Shown piece after piece: positions 32,929 to 39,416 of a stretch of 64,000 nt of DNA. The stretch is from the NCBI RefSeq assembly GCF_944801835.1, contig NZ_CALYLN010000002.1, forward strand, positions 124,001 through 188,000. The letters are read 5' to 3'. The notes beneath the pieces are model-generated. The model worked only from the letters and a program-made list of their open reading frames with translations, searched no databases and was not told the origin of the DNA. Source of the stretch: Bartonella sp. B1099. Lineage in GTDB: Bacteria; Pseudomonadota; Alphaproteobacteria; Rhizobiales; Rhizobiaceae. Position 1 is the first letter of the stretch. Each line of letters starts with the position of its first letter. A program made the position numbers and the translations under genes.

Positions 32929-33015
32929 GATTTATCAAAATAAGATTCGTATAAAAAGAGCAAGCATTAAAAAACATGATCAAAAAAACTGTCATTAAGA
33001 ATTTCTCATACACAG

Positions 33016-33915
33016 GCTGAAGCAATAAGAAATCTCCATTACTTAAAAGATATTGCTTTAGATGCTTTTGAAAGTGGTAAAGCTGAATTAAAAGGGGATG
33101 GTAAGAATGGGAACTGGTTTATACCTTTAAAAATTCATATTCTCCTTAAATTAGGCTGTCTGCCGGTTTCAGAAATTACACAAACAGAGATACGCGATAC
33201 GCTTGCCCCTATTTGGCATACAAAAGCTGGAACTGCTCGAACAGCAGTGATACGTCTTAATCTTTGTCTCAAACATGCGGCTGCGTTAGGCTTGAATGTT
33301 GATTTACAAGCAACAGAAAAAGCAAAAGCTCTCTTAGGAAAACAACGCCATAAGGTCACTAATAGACCAGCCATGAATTGGAAAGAGGTGCCGGCTTTTT
33401 ATAAAACGCTTTGCGAAGCATCAACTCTAACACATTTAGCTTTGCGTTTGCTTATTCTTACAGGGGTTCGTAGAAATTCCTTATGTCATATTCATAAAGA
33501 TCAAGTTGAGGGAGATATATGGACTATCCCTGCTGAAAATATGAAAGGAAGGCGGGATGCTACAACAGAATTTCGTGTTCCCTTATCATCAGAGGCATTA
33601 GAAATATTAAAACAAGCGCGTCTGCTTTCTCGCAATGATTTTTTCTTTTCTGCAACCGGTCGTGGTCCCTTCTCTGAGAAATGTATGGCTCAATATATGA
33701 AACGTAATAAACTTGAAGCCTGCCCCCATGGTTTTCGCTCTAGTTTACGCAATTGGCTTGCTGAAACAACCGATGCCCCCTATGAGGTTGCTGAAACCAT
33801 TCTAAGTCATACGGTTGGGGGTAAAGTAGAGCGTGCCTATCGTCGTACTGATTATTTAGAACAGCGCCGTGTCTATATGGATACATGGGCGGCATATGTT
33901 GCGGGTCAATCTTAA
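33016..33915 (+). pseudogene. Tyrosine integrase, N-terminal third deleted
   Basis: The open frame begins ...EAIRNLHYLKDIALDAFESG and equals residues 91 to the end of the full-length integrase at 37631-38797. The catalytic domain is complete, with ILTGVRRNSL (Arg I), HGFRSSLRNW (His-x-x-Arg), LSHTVGGKVERAYRR and the Tyr in RTDYLEQ nearby. The arm-binding N-terminus is missing, and only a GTG at 33247 could start a shorter product. It is cut at the island edge, 88 bases from the helicase gene start. Confidence 0.8.
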
Positions 33916-34125
33916 GATATGGGGTGCATAACCCCATGATCTGTGGATAACTTTATCTCTCCCTTCTCTCATTCTTTCTCAATAAGATTCATAAATTATA
34001 ACATTAGAAATTATATAATAAAATACTGTTTTCTATAAACTAAATACCTTTCAAATGATGAAAAAATATAGTTAATAAATACTTATGATTTGTTCTCATT
34101 TTTTAATATTTGAAAGGATTTTACT

Positions 34126-34326
34126 ATGATAGAAAATGATATTCTTTTAACAGACCGTGAAAGTGCAAAACTGCTTCATATGAGTGTCTCAACTTTCCGC
34201 CGTCATGTGACCAATGGCTCTTTACCAAAACCTTTAAAATTTGGTTTTTTATCCCGTTGGTTACAATCGGATCTTTTGAATGTTATCGAACAAGCAAAAC
34301 AGCAACGTCAAAGTGATGCGGCATAA
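34126..34326 (+). CDS. AlpA-type excisionase/regulator, copy A
   Basis: 66 residues, winged HTH (LTDRESAKLLHMSVSTFRRH). Protein is identical to the one at 37220-37420. AlpA proteins activate or assist excision by the linked integrase. TGAAAGGATTTTACT precedes the ATG. A hairpin (CCTTGTC at 34332-34338, GACAAGG at 34350-34356, then CTTTTC) ends the transcript. Confidence 0.85.
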   Translation: MIENDILLTDRESAKLLHMSVSTFRRHVTNGSLPKPLKFGFLSRWLQSDLLNVIEQAKQQRQSDAA

Positions 34327-34396
34327 AAAAACCTTGTCACATAAGGATGGACAAGGCTTTTCATTTTCACACGATGATTATGGATAGCAGAGTCCG

Positions 34397-34420
34397 TCCT
34401 ATGATGCAATCATTATAGGA
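34397..34420. promoter_or_regulatory. Near-palindrome before the primase start (left copy)
   Basis: TCCTATGATGCAATCATTATAGGA has 9 of 10 paired positions. The same element lies at 37125-37148 before the intact primase. It ends seven bases before the ATG, so it may be an operator or a structure that controls translation. Its function is inferred. Confidence 0.5.
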
Positions 34421-34426
34421 TCAAAA

Positions 34427-34549
34427 ATGTCTTCTTATATAAATGCTTGGGGCATCACAAATGCCTTGCATGGGGTTTGGTATGGGCGTTATGGACTTGC
34501 CCGTTGTCCAGCCCATGATGATCAATTGCCTAGCTTATTCATTGAATAA
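34427..34549 (+). pseudogene. Truncated start of a Toprim primase gene
   Basis: 40 codons, MSSYINAWGITNALHGVWYG... up to HDDQLPSL, match the start of the intact primase at 36219-37115, then FIE-stop is new sequence. The break at 34541 marks the left edge of the unique cargo segment. Confidence 0.75.
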
Positions 34550-34572
34550 ATTAGCGTATCTTATAAACTATG

Positions 34573-34845
34573 CTAATTAGCAGCTTTAAAGTTTTCTAAA
34601 ATATTAAAAGAAAAATCCGCTATGTGAGAAAACTTAGGTGTCAATAACAATTCCCCTGCTCTGTTCTTTCGATTAAAGTACCAAGCTTTATATTTGCACC
34701 ACTCTTTTCTTCTATTGATAGTTTCTCTTTCAATATGGAGTGGAACAAAACCATTTTTGTTAGCATATTCTAACAATCCCAAGTTTTTGATTGTCTGTAT
34801 CTTGTTATCATAAGAAACACGTAAACGAACGTAAAATTTTGTCAT
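34573..34845 (-). CDS. Hypothetical 90-residue protein of the cargo segment
   Basis: Reads MTKFYVRLRVSYDNKIQTIK and is basic, with a central ETINRRKEWCKYKAWYFNRK. No domain recognised, no signal peptide. It is transcribed away from the two-gene unit that starts at 34989, with about 140 bases between them. An in-frame TTG at 34851 is an alternative start. No clear ribosome site, so moderate doubt remains. Confidence 0.45.
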   Translation of the reverse strand: MTKFYVRLRVSYDNKIQTIKNLGLLEYANKNGFVPLHIERETINRRKEWCKYKAWYFNRKNRAGELLLTPKFSHIADFSFNILENFKAAN

Positions 34846-34988
34846 GTTCAATAAAAAATGATTAAAGATAAAAGCAGATATCTTATTTTCATTTCAAACA
34901 ACAAATTGAAAAATTCATAGGAAATTTGATTGATCAGATTTAACCATTAGATTAATATTTCAAGACAAATTACAGAAAGGAATTTCCT

Positions 34989-35294
34989 ATGCAAAAGAAA
35001 TTACCCAAAAGTTATATGACAGATGCTGAACGTGAAGAATTACGAGCAGGCGGGTTAGATCAAGACTGTATTTATCTCTCTGAATCAGAAGCGGCTGACC
35101 GTGCTAACGATAGCAAAGCAGCATGGGAATGGTTGGCAATGACTGAACCTCCAGCACATACACTTTTGTTTCTTAAAAAGCGGCATGGAGCACAATTTAT
35201 TCGTGATATGGGATTTTCTACTAAAGATGCTGATAAAGAATATGGTCCCGATTGGTTAGATAAAGATATTATCGTAGGAGGCCATCATTTCTAA
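34989..35294 (+). CDS. Hypothetical 101-residue protein, first gene of the cargo unit
   Basis: Starts MQKKLPKSYMTDAEREELRA after a good site (AAAGGAATTTCCT). It is acidic in the middle (YLSESEAADRANDSKAAWEW), with PAHTLLFLKKRHGAQFIRDM and an acidic end. It has no Cys-rich site, membrane span or DNA-binding motif I can name. The second gene overlaps its last eight bases with its own strong Shine-Dalgarno, so the two are cotranscribed and probably interact. The layout (two short overlapping genes inside a mobile segment) fits toxin-antitoxin or antidefence pairs, but no motif supports a named family. Confidence 0.65.
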   Translation: MQKKLPKSYMTDAEREELRAGGLDQDCIYLSESEAADRANDSKAAWEWLAMTEPPAHTLLFLKKRHGAQFIRDMGFSTKDADKEYGPDWLDKDIIVGGHHF

Positions 35295-35820
35295 AGAATT
35301 TGACGAGTTAGAACGTATTTTTGTTCGCGAAAATGGTTATATAAAAAGACTCAATGAAGCATTGATGACCAAGAAACTACATGGTGTGCGAAATGATTTA
35401 TGGAGTTATCTTCGTAACATTGGGAAAAGCGGTGATTTATCATTACTTATTGATACGGAACGTAGTCTTGTAGAAAATGATTTGCTAAGATATGCTAACA
35501 GCAAGGCTATGACTAGTAGTCTTAAAACAGCATTGACTGAAATTGATACTATTAAGAAGCATGTAGCGTTTGTAGAAAATCCTAAGAAATATGAGGTGAT
35601 AAATGAAGCTTATAGTTTATCTAAAAATCGTAAAGGTGGATTGCCTTATGATGAAGCACGTCAAGCAATGGCATCGCATTATGCAAGGCTTGGAAATCTG
35701 GACAAAGCACGTTTAACGGACATTGAAAAGTCTATCATTGATGCGAGAAGAGAAAATATCAAGGCAATGCAAAAACTCTACGAAAAGATGCAAACCAAAG
35801 CGATTGGTATAGATTTCTAA
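35287..35820 (+). CDS. Hypothetical helical protein, second gene of the cargo unit, probable ATT start
   Basis: The frame opens right after a TAG at 35275 and runs ISKEFDELERIFVRENGYIK... to KAIGIDF-stop. No ATG, GTG or TTG occurs until 35362 (TTG-ATG), which has no ribosome site. At 35276-35281 is a perfect AGGAGG, five bases before ATT at 35287, so I start there (177 residues). The shorter form from 35362 has 152. The protein looks all-helical with Lys/Glu-rich ends (YDEARQAMASHYARLGNLDK, SIIDARRENIKAMQKLYEKM) and no recognised domain. The start codon is inferred. Confidence 0.6.
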   Translation: MSKEFDELERIFVRENGYIKRLNEALMTKKLHGVRNDLWSYLRNIGKSGDLSLLIDTERSLVENDLLRYANSKAMTSSLKTALTEIDTIKKHVAFVENPKKYEVINEAYSLSKNRKGGLPYDEARQAMASHYARLGNLDKARLTDIEKSIIDARRENIKAMQKLYEKMQTKAIGIDF

Positions 35821-35931
35821 CTCAATAGCCTACTCATAACAAAGCTTTTTACATTAATTTATTCACACATCTTTAAAAGTAATACCTAAATGAAATATCC
35901 CTGCTGAATATAATCGTCCTAATTTCTTTCT

Positions 35932-36222
35932 CTATACGCCATTGCCAATGACAGCAGCCAAACCACATAAAGCAGAGACAGCAATAAAATCTATTGGAGC
36001 CTGTTGACGCTCTGAAACGTCATAAATGTAGTCCATGAATGGCATTAGGAGCTGTAATGGATTAAAAGGTTCGACGGGTAAAAGAGCCGTAGCAATCGGT
36101 TTTAATTCCCCCCAACCATTTTGTTGCAAGGCTTGTTCATAAGGAATGGCTTTTAAACAAGCATTATCGTTATCATTGACGGGGGCATTATTCTCTAAAA
36201 TATTTTTATTATCTTGTTTCAT
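35932..36222 (-). pseudogene. Truncated DUF3987 (phage/plasmid helicase-primase type) protein
   Basis: 96 residues. After a variable head the chain shows PFNPLQLLMPFMDYIYDVSE and APIDFIAVSALCGLAAVIGN, the usual beginning of DUF3987 replication proteins, which are several hundred residues long. It breaks off after IGNGV where the unique segment begins. Its start overlaps the primase stop by three to four bases, so it was the next gene in the replication operon. Confidence 0.75.
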
Positions 36223-37115
36223 ATTACGTACCTTGAATAATAGAGAAAATCATTGAAATCGGTTCCTTTTGGAGCTTGCATGATAAAGACCTCAAAGCCT
36301 TGCCTATAAGCACGCTTTGCTAGGGTAAAACTCGCTTTACGACCCGCATCATCCCCATCCATTGCAATTGTCAGACGCCCTTTTATCGGGGGTAAATTCA
36401 CACGCATCATGCCACTGGTGGAAAGAGACGACCATAAATTAACGGGCTCTGATAACAACCCAGACAGCAACGCCAGCCCCGTTTCAATGCCTTCACAAAT
36501 AACCAGATGTTTTGGATTGGCTTGACTTAAATGCACAGCACCGCCCATGACAGAACCCAACATGGCTTTTGCTGGTTTCTGATCTGTTTTGCAGCCATTG
36601 GCTTGTAAAAAGGTCCTATGAATGGCAAAGGAACCAGCCCCCTTAACAAGAGCCACCAACGCGGGCAGTGTCATTCCTAATGGGTGCGGACATTTGTCGT
36701 GAAAGCGTAAATCAGCAGGCAACTCACACGTGATCCCCCGCATGCGTAAATAGGTTTCTGCTAAAGTATTTTTGATCGGTTGGCTTTGTTGCCAAATCGC
36801 TTTTGCTCTTTCTGCTTTCTGTTTTGTTTCTTTGAAATCAGCACAAAACTGTTTTGAGAAAGAAAGCGTATGATCATAAGCTTTATCAAAAAAGGCTTGT
36901 TTCCCCAGTAAGCCAATTCTTGTGAGCGCTTGTATGATCTCTCTAAAAGAACAGCCAGCATAACAAGTGAGTAAGAGACGCCCATCATTTCCATTGGTAA
37001 TAGATAAGCTAGGCAATTGATCATCATGAGCAGGGCAACGGGCAAGTCCATAACGCCCATACCAAATCCCATGCAAGGCATTTGTAATGCCCTGCGCATT
37101 CGTAAAAGAAAACAT
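36219..37115 (-). CDS. Toprim-domain primase of a mobile element
   Basis: 298 residues. An N-terminal zinc-ribbon-like part (CPAHDDQLPSLSITNGNDGR..., CYAGC; Cys/His ligands at about 28-58) resembles phage P4-type primases. The C-terminal Toprim domain has VICEGIETGLALLSGL (Glu) and TIAMDGDDAGRKAS (DxD). It would prime DNA synthesis of the element. Intact here, truncated in the left repeat. It follows the AlpA gene in one operon with a near-palindrome before the start. Confidence 0.82.
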   Translation of the reverse strand: MFSFTNAQGITNALHGIWYGRYGLARCPAHDDQLPSLSITNGNDGRLLLTCYAGCSFREIIQALTRIGLLGKQAFFDKAYDHTLSFSKQFCADFKETKQKAERAKAIWQQSQPIKNTLAETYLRMRGITCELPADLRFHDKCPHPLGMTLPALVALVKGAGSFAIHRTFLQANGCKTDQKPAKAMLGSVMGGAVHLSQANPKHLVICEGIETGLALLSGLLSEPVNLWSSLSTSGMMRVNLPPIKGRLTIAMDGDDAGRKASFTLAKRAYRQGFEVFIMQAPKGTDFNDFLYYSRYVI

Positions 37116-38530
37116 ATTTTTTGATCCTATAATGATTGCATCATAGGACGGACTCTGCTATCCATAATCATCGTGTGAAAATGAAAAGCCTTGTCCATCC
37201 TTATGTGACAAGGTTTTTTTTATGCCGCATCACTTTGACGTTGCTGTTTTGCTTGTTCGATTACATTCAAGAGATCCGATTGTAACCAACGGGATAAAAA
37301 ACCAAATTTTAAAGGTTTTGGAAGAGAGCCATTGGTCACATGACGGCGGAAAGTTGAGACACTCATATGAAGCAGTTTTGCACTTTCACGGTCTGTTAAA
37401 AGAATATCATTTTCTATCATAGTAAAATCCTTTCAAATATTAAAAAATGAGAACAAATCATAAGCATTTATTAACCATATTTTTGCATCATTTGAAAGGT
37501 ATTTAGTTTATAGAAAACAGTATTTTATCATATATTTTCTAATGCGATAATTTATGAATCTTATTGAGACGATATGAGAGAAAAGAGAGCTAAAGTTATC
37601 CACAGATAATGGGGTATTACACCCCATATCTTAAGATTGACCTGTGACATAAGCCGCCCATTTATCCATATAAACACGGCGCTGTTCTAAATAATCTGTA
37701 CGACGATAAGCACGTTCCACTTGCCCTCCAACTGTATGACTTAGAATGGTTTCAGCGACTTCATAGGGGGCATCGGTTGTTTCAGCAAGCCAATTGCGTA
37801 AACTAGAACGAAAACCATGGGGGCAGGCTTCAAGTCCAATTTTTTTCATATATTTTGACATACACTTATCAGCAAGGGGACCACGACCTCTAGCAGAAAA
37901 AAAGAAATCATTGCGAGAAAGCAGGCGCGCTTGTTTTAATATTTCCAATGCCTCTGATGATAAAGGCACGCGAAATTCTGTTGTCGTATCACGTCGACCT
38001 TTCATATTTTCAGCAGGGATAGTCCATATATCCCCATCAACTTGATCTTTATGAATATGACATAAAGGAAAAGTACGAACCCCTGTCAGAATAAGCAAAC
38101 GCAAAGCCAGTTGTGTCATTGTTGTTTTTTGACAAAGTGTTTTATAAAAAGCAGGAACATCTTTCCAATCCATGGCTGGTAAATTTTTGACTTTATGACG
38201 TTGTTTACCTAAGAGCGCGCGTGCTTTTTCTGTTGCTTGTAAATCAACATCTAACCCTAATGCAGCCGCGTGTTTAAGACAAAGATTGAAACGAATAAGA
38301 GCTCTATTAGCTGTTCCAGCTTTTGAATGCCAAATAGGGGCAAGTGTATTGCGTATCTCTGTTTTGGTAATCTCAGAAACCGGCAGACAGCCTAATTTAG
38401 GGAGAATATGAAGGCGTAATGGTAAAAACCAATCCCCAGTTTTACCATCATTTTTTAATTCAGCTTTACGACTTTCAAAAGCATCTAAAGCAATATCTTT
38501 TAAATAATGAAGATTGCTTATTGCTTCACG
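37004..38530 (-). repeat. Inverted repeat, right arm (about 1.5 kb)
   Basis: Opposite-orientation partner of 33016-34541. Both arms contain integrase codons, the spacer with GATATGGGGTGT, the AlpA gene, its hairpin and the palindrome before the primase. Divergence is higher in the integrase than in the AlpA part. Confidence 0.85.
37220..37420 (-). CDS. AlpA-type excisionase/regulator, copy B
   Basis: 66 residues, protein identical to copy A at 34126-34326. It lies between the integrase and the primase and is read in the same direction as both. The near identity against more divergent flanks suggests recent conversion or selection. A hairpin (CCTTGTC...GACAAGG, 37191-37212) follows the gene. 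Confidence 0.85.
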   Translation of the reverse strand: MIENDILLTDRESAKLLHMSVSTFRRHVTNGSLPKPLKFGFLSRWLQSDLLNVIEQAKQQRQSDAA

Positions 38531-38797
38531 CTTTTGTTTTTCACGTTCTTTAATGGGGTCACGACCCTCACGAAGAATAGAACGCCACCCCGTTGCCAAT
38601 TCACGCGCTTGTTTTAAAGAGACATCTCTCAAGGCACCCAAGTCCATTTCGCGGCGCCACCCGTGAAGGGTATAACGATAAATCCATTGAGCACCTCCAT
38701 CTTTACGCTTATGGAGTAACAAGCCGGCACCATCATTATATTTGCCAGCTCCCAATGTTGCGACAGATCTTGCATTAAGACGGTTCATAAGGACCAT
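37631..38797 (-). CDS. Full-length tyrosine integrase
   Basis: 388 residues from MVLMNRLNARSVATLGAG (start 38797; AAAGGAGTAAAA before it, longer frame to 38833 rejected). The N-terminal DUF4102-like arm-binding part carries GGAQWIYRYTLHGWRREMDL and ALRDVSLKQAREL. A core-binding domain and a catalytic domain follow, with LTGVR (Arg I), HGFRSSLRNWLAE (His-Arg), LSHTVGG and the nucleophile Tyr in RRTDY or AYRR nearby. P4-type enzymes usually integrate at tRNA or similar genes. No tRNA is next to it, so the present location results from rearrangement or another site. Confidence 0.9.
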   Translation of the reverse strand: MVLMNRLNARSVATLGAGKYNDGAGLLLHKRKDGGAQWIYRYTLHGWRREMDLGALRDVSLKQARELATGWRSILREGRDPIKEREKQKREAISNLHYLKDIALDAFESRKAELKNDGKTGDWFLPLRLHILPKLGCLPVSEITKTEIRNTLAPIWHSKAGTANRALIRFNLCLKHAAALGLDVDLQATEKARALLGKQRHKVKNLPAMDWKDVPAFYKTLCQKTTMTQLALRLLILTGVRTFPLCHIHKDQVDGDIWTIPAENMKGRRDTTTEFRVPLSSEALEILKQARLLSRNDFFFSARGRGPLADKCMSKYMKKIGLEACPHGFRSSLRNWLAETTDAPYEVAETILSHTVGGQVERAYRRTDYLEQRRVYMDKWAAYVTGQS

Positions 38798-38976
38798 TTT
38801 TACTCCTTTCTTATACAAATTTAATCCACACACTCATCCCACTTGTTATGTGCAAATGAGTGGTTTTGATTAATTCAAGATAGAGAGATTTGAAATGAGA
38901 GAATCTTACGTTATTCGAAGGTCTAATTCAATATGAATAACGATAGATTATCTTTATAAATCAATATCTTGTAGAT

Positions 38977-39416
38977 ATGAGATGGGGAATTGAACATAAG
39001 AAGATGCCTTGAGAGAATATGCATTCATTTATGATATTGAAGTCACAAGGTGCGGCTTTATTCAACACCCCACAATAAAAATGGCGGGGGCTAGCCCTGA
39101 TGGTCTGATTGATGAAGATGGGTTAATCGAAATCAAATGTCCTAGATCGACTAATCATATGCGGTTCATTATCGATAACGAAATCAAACCAGAATATCTT
39201 GCACAAATGCAGTTTCAAATGGCTTGTACGGGGCGCAAATGGTGTGATTTTATCAGTTATGACCCACGTTTTACGAGCGATTCATCTCTCTTTCGTATGA
39301 AAATCAAACGCATCCACCGTGATGAAAAGAAAATTGAAGAGATTAATCAAGCGGTTGAAAGCTTTTTAGCAGAAATAGAACGAGAGATACAAAGAATCTC
39401 AACTAAAGCCGCCTGA
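38977..39416 (+). pseudogene. Second yqaJ copy, 5' truncated and frameshifted
   Basis: Homology to the 5.5-6.0 kb exonuclease begins with ATGAGATGGGGAATTGAACA. There CATGAAGAAGATGCC of the intact copy reads CATAAGAAGATGCC, a one-base loss giving a stop at 39010. The rest (REYAFIYDIEVTRCGF to EIQRISTKAA) is open and includes the nuclease residues GASPDGLIDEDGLIEIKCP. About the first 65 residues are missing. A TTG at 39009 could start the fragment. This copy keeps the C-terminal 23 residues that the other lost to a stop. Confidence 0.8.

Follow-up and report, generated by a model that had tools for sequence, protein, structure and literature searches.

The window, by which we mean the whole stretch of 64,000 nucleotides that was analyzed, is C2:124001-188000 of a Bartonella genome assembled into 5 contigs (2.29 Mb). 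Its segment 34541-35935 carries two genes on the forward strand, here called A and B, and the reversed remnant of a serine recombinase gene (Table 1). The two genes overlap by 8 nt, with B in the +1 frame relative to A, and this layout of two small overlapping genes (101 and 177 aa), which is that of type II toxin-antitoxin operons, is constant across intact copies. A first-pass annotation of the window had described three unrecognized genes between two breaks in replication genes; the layout of one reverse and two overlapping forward frames stood, and A and B are still without a family name, but the reverse frame turned out to be the recombinase remnant. Its product is 51% identical over 90 aa to the recombinase of plasmid pBT01, which matches Pfam Resolvase (3.5e-25); the remnant itself has no Pfam match, and its protein sequence is 100% identical in three places of the same genome. 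The product of the gene at 34126..34326 is presumably AlpA-like and is so named here. Our promoter scan did not list the conserved block at 34930-34958 and returned 7 sites versus 5.2 in shuffled sequences, and Rfam gave no match within 33000-39000.

Table 1. Features in and around the segment (window positions)
Feature	Position	Strand	Basis or remark
Integrase 3' fragment	33018..33915	+	residues 103-400 of the copy at 37631-38833
Recurring stretch	33018..35935	+	two more places in own genome, A-B diverged there
AlpA-like helix-turn-helix protein (presumed)	34126..34326	+	HTH_17 match weak, under cut-off (Pfam)
Primase 5' stump	34427..34549	+	match ends right after LPSL; break common to other loci
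Recombinase (resolvase) remnant, first ~90 residues	34573..34848	-	the 90-residue gene of the first-pass annotation (ORF 34573-34851)
Conserved block 5' of A, promoter-like TTGATC-17-TAATAT	34930..34958	+	alignment of 46 upstream regions; weak consensus score
Gene A (101 aa); modelled as all-helical; putative antitoxin-like partner	34989..35294	+	ORF, homologues, model pLDDT 94.3
AGGAGG, predicted Shine-Dalgarno sequence of gene B	35276..35281	+	within gene A codons 96-98
Gene B (177 aa counted from ATT); modelled as a helical bundle; putative toxin-like protein	35287..35820	+	model pLDDT 88.2
ATT (AUU), predicted start codon of gene B	35287..35289	+	5 nt 3' of AGGAGG
YfjI/DUF3987 N-terminal fragment, residues 1-105, ending IGNGV	35932..36222	-	right break 35935/35936 private
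Toprim primase, inverted copy	36219..37115	-	Pfam Toprim_3 1.5e-15
AlpA-like gene, inverted copy	37220..37420	-	ORF
Tyrosine integrase	37631..38833	-	Pfam Phage_integrase 2e-11

The breaks named in the first-pass annotation, at LPSL in the primase copy at 34427 and at IGNGV in the DUF3987 copy, were both seen in our sequence matches. To place them, we counted loci with an AlpA gene, a primase stump, a recombinase remnant and A-B. The primase stump ends at residue 47-50 in 12 loci besides the window, two in the same genome and 10 in eight other genomes. On the right side, which is readable in 11 of the 12 (the sequence of L140 ends inside B), 10 loci resume in YfjI at residue 389-398 and L065 resumes at 477. 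In the 500-nt DNA alignment, the join of primase and remnant lies inside only part of the rows, and L066 and L136 begin just after it. Because the left break and the resumption in YfjI recur across loci, the insertion into a primase-YfjI replication operon is real and old, and this comparison supports the view that recombinase remnant, A and B form a unit that replaced the middle of the operon. The right break at 35935/35936, in contrast, was found only in the window among the loci examined, where it joins an inverted YfjI(1-105)-primase-AlpA-integrase block. On these alignments, the window copy alone was rearranged later at IGNGV, and that break is not an edge of the slot. The proposal of a cargo slot in a replication operon, with the same sharp edges between genomes, was supported for the left edge, which recurs in this and eight other genomes, and not for the right one.

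We also observed that the integrase-AlpA-primase stretches at 33018-34538 and 37004-38528 flank the pair as inverted repeats of 89% identity, which could permit inversion, or could reflect an assembly misjoin at 35935/35936.

The region 33018-35935 aligns with two further loci of the same genome, L010 and L012, at 89.5% identity over 2923 columns. Within these copies, A and B are only 76% and 68% identical to the window proteins. Since the DNA 5' of A is the same and A and B have diverged, it looks as if the A-B pair alone had been exchanged between copies. When L010:12313-15221 was set against 33018-35935 of the window, the aligned DNA 5' of A was the same in the three copies of this genome.

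To define gene B, we followed its frame upstream. A TAG in ATAGGAGG closes the frame 14 nt before the stop of A, and the interval contains none of ATG, GTG and TTG. B is not confined to the part that follows the TTG at 35362: the frame is open from about 35278, and the likely start is ATT 35287. We then compared 33 distinct intact copies, leaving out the TTG-type copy L055. The codon at 35287 is ATT in 32 of the 33 and ACT in the other (L021/L137), and AGGAGG lies exactly 5 nt upstream of the start codon in 31, both elements falling within the last codons of A. The first canonical in-frame start, on the other hand, is not common to the copies: it takes 15 combinations of position and codon, anywhere from codon 4 to codon 63, and is preceded by a Shine-Dalgarno-like motif in 2 of 33 only. 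Downstream TTG, GTG or ATG codons were for this reason rejected as the start of B. AUC at 35284 was rejected as well, as the codon preceding ATT has 7 forms (ATC, ATT, AGT, ACC, GTC, AAC and AGC) and lies 2 nt from the Shine-Dalgarno sequence. What we found is a strong Shine-Dalgarno sequence before AUU with no canonical alternative, the arrangement of the infC kind.

The codon choices of A at the junction were examined as well. Ile96 is ATA in 32/33 copies (family usage 27%), Gly97 is GGA in 32/33 (29%), and Phe101 is TTC in 29/33 (11%), which makes codon 2 of B TCT; at His100, the wobble by itself is unremarkable, CAT being in any case the more frequent His codon (80%). These synonymous choices fit an AGGAGG-AUU signal. 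On the tree of A, we counted no wobble change at codon 96 and one at codon 97, versus 5 and 8 at two other Ile codons and 3-12 at five other Gly codons; zero change is not special to codon 96, being seen also at 4 of 51 conserved degenerate codons elsewhere. Codons 4-26 of B, which in many copies precede the first canonical start, gave pN 0.316 and pS 0.463 over 227 pairs, suggesting mild constraint in the B frame. The infC gene of this genome (L142, G000:C1:737791-738048 region) reads AAGGAG-CATAAACC-ATT with an 8 nt spacer, and its open frame has its first ATG at codon 8; as it appears to begin at ATT, AUU starts seem usable in this host. Taken as they stand, the alignments make AUU very probably the start of gene B.

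A different route to B would be a programmed +1 frameshift near the A stop, stimulated by AGGAGG as in prfB and giving an A-B fusion. The B frame is indeed open 5' of the A stop in aligned intact copies, AGGAGG is conserved, and the A stop is directly preceded by TTC in 29/33. However, a slip from TTC to TCT would break the second base pair, and the better TTT-T occurs in only 4/33. In prfB, moreover, the Shine-Dalgarno sequence lies 3 nt from the last sense codon, unlike the 7 nt between AGGAGG and that codon here. Rhodanobacter and diverged Bartonella copies also start B separately, and we consider a frameshift very improbable. In the diverged Bartonella copies L064, L130, L051 and L055, a TTG lies at or adjoining the A stop, and in the Rhodanobacter pair the genes overlap as ATGA; our reading is that ordinary coupled starts gave way to a putative AUU start in the main Bartonella family. 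PGAP gives gene B differing, shortened starts on the plasmids pBT01, pBHa, pOE11-1 and pTLV-1, as it would if the true start were AUU.

Next, we looked at the distribution of the pair. Among 71 Bartonella genomes, A has matches in 34 and B in 36 at E<=0.001, with fragments and the source genome counted, and full-length copies are 66-94% (A) and 55-81% (B) identical to the window proteins. The pair lies on plasmids and genomic islands, integrase islands among them, and often in several copies per genome. Five plasmid records matched, all from Bartonella. pBT01 has an intact pair; the conjugative plasmids pBHa, pOE11-1 and pTLV-1 have two A places each: a first (with a broken B on pOE11-1) before traG by a recombinase gene, and a second between traC and trbB. 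Several pairs are found on pVbh-type plasmids, and one replicon (G038:C2) has up to eleven A matches, some fragmentary. This comparison across replicons shows A-B as a unit that spreads on Bartonella plasmids and islands.

Outside the genus, relatives were rare. Two peptide patterns, run against 84,980 species genomes, returned 32 loci: 30 in Bartonella, one in Pseudoxanthomonas (A only) and one in Rhodanobacter (both genes). Draws of genomes from the order (3/397), class (1/289) and phylum (2/398) gave matches in Bartonella only, and draws around Rhodanobacter gave A in 4/398 of the order and B in 1/233 of the family; all of these are samples, not censuses. In two further genomes of the Rhodanobacter order, A has no B match nearby and lies beside a TraI/LPD7 relaxase gene (L145) or a NikA/TraJ-like gene (L146). 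We found no relative of A or B among viral contigs and phage records; searches of the open-access literature gave no account of the A-B pair or of any toxin-antitoxin gene that starts at AUU.

We then asked how the pair decays. At the 72 A places among the loci examined, both genes are open in 38, A is open with B broken or absent in 23, and both are broken in 11; no place has a broken A with an open B. The expectation that the two overlapping genes travel together is borne out by the 38. A place was scored as "A open" if the frame, flanks counted, reached 100 codons or more, and the 23 include L113 and L123, which have no in-frame ATG, and L126, with only 91 codons. Of nine B pieces without A nearby, eight are fragments and one is full length (G054:C80, L060, 55% identity). 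The antitoxin-like gene thus outlasts the toxin-like gene and not the reverse, by 23 to 0 and one B without A. At the 23 places where A alone is open, the B frames stop at 20 distinct lengths. If hits are assumed to fall in proportion to gene length, and the lone B is scored as a counterexample, so few A-only losses have P=0.0003, a value that overstates independence because the copies are related. A stop in A would also silence a coupled B, so that the asymmetry could arise with a harmless B.

By nearest-neighbour count, the dN/dS of A is 0.27 at places with a broken B and 0.17 at those with an intact one, consistent with an A that is constrained and slightly relaxed once B is broken. Mean column identity is 81% for A versus 71% for B. 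Antitoxins are usually less conserved than toxins, and A-B shows the reverse. Scattered decayed copies had been named beforehand as the outcome that would speak against a cargo module, and this was partly seen: B or both genes are broken at 34 of the 72 places, and the adjoining recombinase gene is a remnant. That A-B is mere debris of decayed mobile genes is nevertheless scarcely credible, given 38 intact pairs, an A dN/dS of 0.17-0.27 and the synonymous sites kept at the junction. The pair decays as toxin-antitoxin pairs do, which makes an undescribed module of this type probable.

To see what A and B might be, we turned to profiles and structural models. Neither protein matched a named family in Pfam, NCBIfam, PHROG, PADLOC or PDB-sequence searches, and no toxin or antitoxin family reached the cut-off in Pfam, NCBIfam or PADLOC. 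With a view to autoregulation by a DNA-binding antitoxin, A was compared with Pfam profiles, which gave no DNA-binding domain; the conserved block lies upstream of A. The best PHROG match of B was a tape-measure protein (E=0.006), a coiled-coil-type match, and A had none; the proteins are not known phage structural genes, an outcome that the first-pass annotation had named as refuting. AlphaFold predicted A as all-helical and B as a helical bundle whose first helix spans 46 residues. In Foldseek, the best E for B was 0.35 (PDB) and 0.043 (BFVD), and for A 1.0 (PDB); VIA-align gave up to Z 10.4 for B (with the unrelated TTYH2) and up to 4.4 for A, values that helical bundles often reach. TPR-like helix pairs are seen in A, by weak structural similarity only.

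Across 38 B sequences including that of Rhodanobacter, 22 positions are invariant, among them R115, K116, D122, R125 and H131. HEPN RNases have the motif R-x4-6-H, and B has R125-x5-H131, although one such pair by chance is not improbable. With its all-helical bundle model and this pair of residues, B is like the HEPN RNase toxins; unlike them, it has no standout structural match, and A is not an MNT-type antitoxin by profile. No HEPN profile in Pfam matched B, and for this reason we did not file B under HEPN.

The setting of some copies also favors a toxin-antitoxin module. The pair of L064 lies between a PIN gene (Pfam 8.4e-07) and a PemK gene (2.3e-26), and HipA is found near the A-B loci L060 and L116. 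A CAP12/Pycsar-type TIR gene (L060:1787-2242) was seen beside the HipA and RepC-like genes near the lone B. L055 has its diverged pair in a prophage, with capsid protein E on one side and an AntA antirepressor on the other. HicA/HicB labels given by eye in L055 were dropped, as Pfam found nothing for the one tested. The same Bartonella prophage carries a YopJ-family acetyltransferase gene (L055:8166-9083, Pfam 2.1e-71). For pVbh, PMC5675462 reports 14 modules predicted as toxin-antitoxin systems, together with 4 orphan antitoxins. Some A-B copies may already be flagged there as candidate modules, in the S1 Fig that annotates every pVbh gene.

We considered whether the pair might instead be an accessory of plasmid transfer or replication (a regulator, relaxosome component or T4SS helper) that plasmids have duplicated. 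Pairs between traC and trbB, and between the recombinase gene and traG, on pBHa, pOE11-1 and pTLV-1 would fit such a role, as would copies directly 3' of repC (L047, L048, L049, L052, L053, L133 and others) and, in two Gammaproteobacteria, an A that adjoins a TraI-type relaxase gene (L145) or a NikA/TraJ-like gene (L146). Yet pBT, as described in an excerpt from PMC2938332, is without a T4SS, and pBT01 nonetheless has an intact pair, which speaks against a transfer function. Pairs are also found on pVbh-type plasmids, which have a VirB-type T4SS (PMC5675462, in excerpt), in the L055 prophage and in integrase islands, with no fixed neighbor. We regard an accessory of this sort as rather unlikely.

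Other mobile cargo (an anti-defense factor, a host regulator or an entry-exclusion pair, with A a chaperone-like partner of B) would be compatible with the absence of named matches, with many divergent copies per plasmid, which fit an arms race, and with the weakly TPR-like helix pairs of A. PADLOC returned nothing, although it covers defense rather than anti-defense, and the one-sided loss of B better suits a harmful B. Cargo of such a kind seems to us unlikely.

The explanation that we place first, with about half of our confidence, is that A-B is mobile two-gene cargo, probably toxin-antitoxin-like of type II, in which A would be protective and B harmful if produced by itself; the putative toxicity of B is suggested by the pattern of loss. 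Ribosomes that finish A would initiate B at AUU with low efficiency, as in infC. B would thus be scarce relative to A, and its output would follow initiation factor IF3. B would act inside the bacterium and be bound by A, and the plasmid or island would benefit through maintenance or competition. A more specific form of this proposal, a new toxin-antitoxin family whose R-x5-H (HEPN-like) RNase toxin is tied in its synthesis to IF3 by an AUU inside the antitoxin gene and so senses the state of translation initiation, is quite unlikely.

Gene B resembles infC and pcnB of E. coli and cvfC1 of Staphylococcus aureus in having an AUU start with a strong Shine-Dalgarno sequence. It differs from these in being mobile, multi-copy and the second gene of an operon, with a start, predicted from sequence, that lies inside the upstream gene. 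AUU starts are very rare in bacteria, with two E. coli genes given in the excerpted text of PMC9410913, and the known AUU-started genes have a low or IF3-sensitive output (PMC9410913 and PMC13009471, both in excerpt). VbhTA/FicTA, as far as excerpts from PMC5675462 describe it, is likewise a small overlapping pair carried by plasmids and islands of the same types, and its antitoxin-like gene can persist alone; A-B, in contrast, has no FIC or other known toxin domain, matches no known family and has the predicted AUU start. Also close are the recombinase-A-B sets of pBT01, pBHa, pOE11-1 and pTLV-1, which belong to the same family as the window pair and are annotated as hypothetical. Those are plasmid-borne with a longer recombinase, whereas the window pair lies in an integrase island beside a recombinase remnant.

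With AUU kept in 32/33 copies and AGGAGG in 31/33, the mobile A-B family would offer a natural instance, in many copies, of start-codon control in a gene other than infC. Should A-B prove to be a toxin-antitoxin system, current family libraries miss a large family of such modules on Bartonella plasmids.
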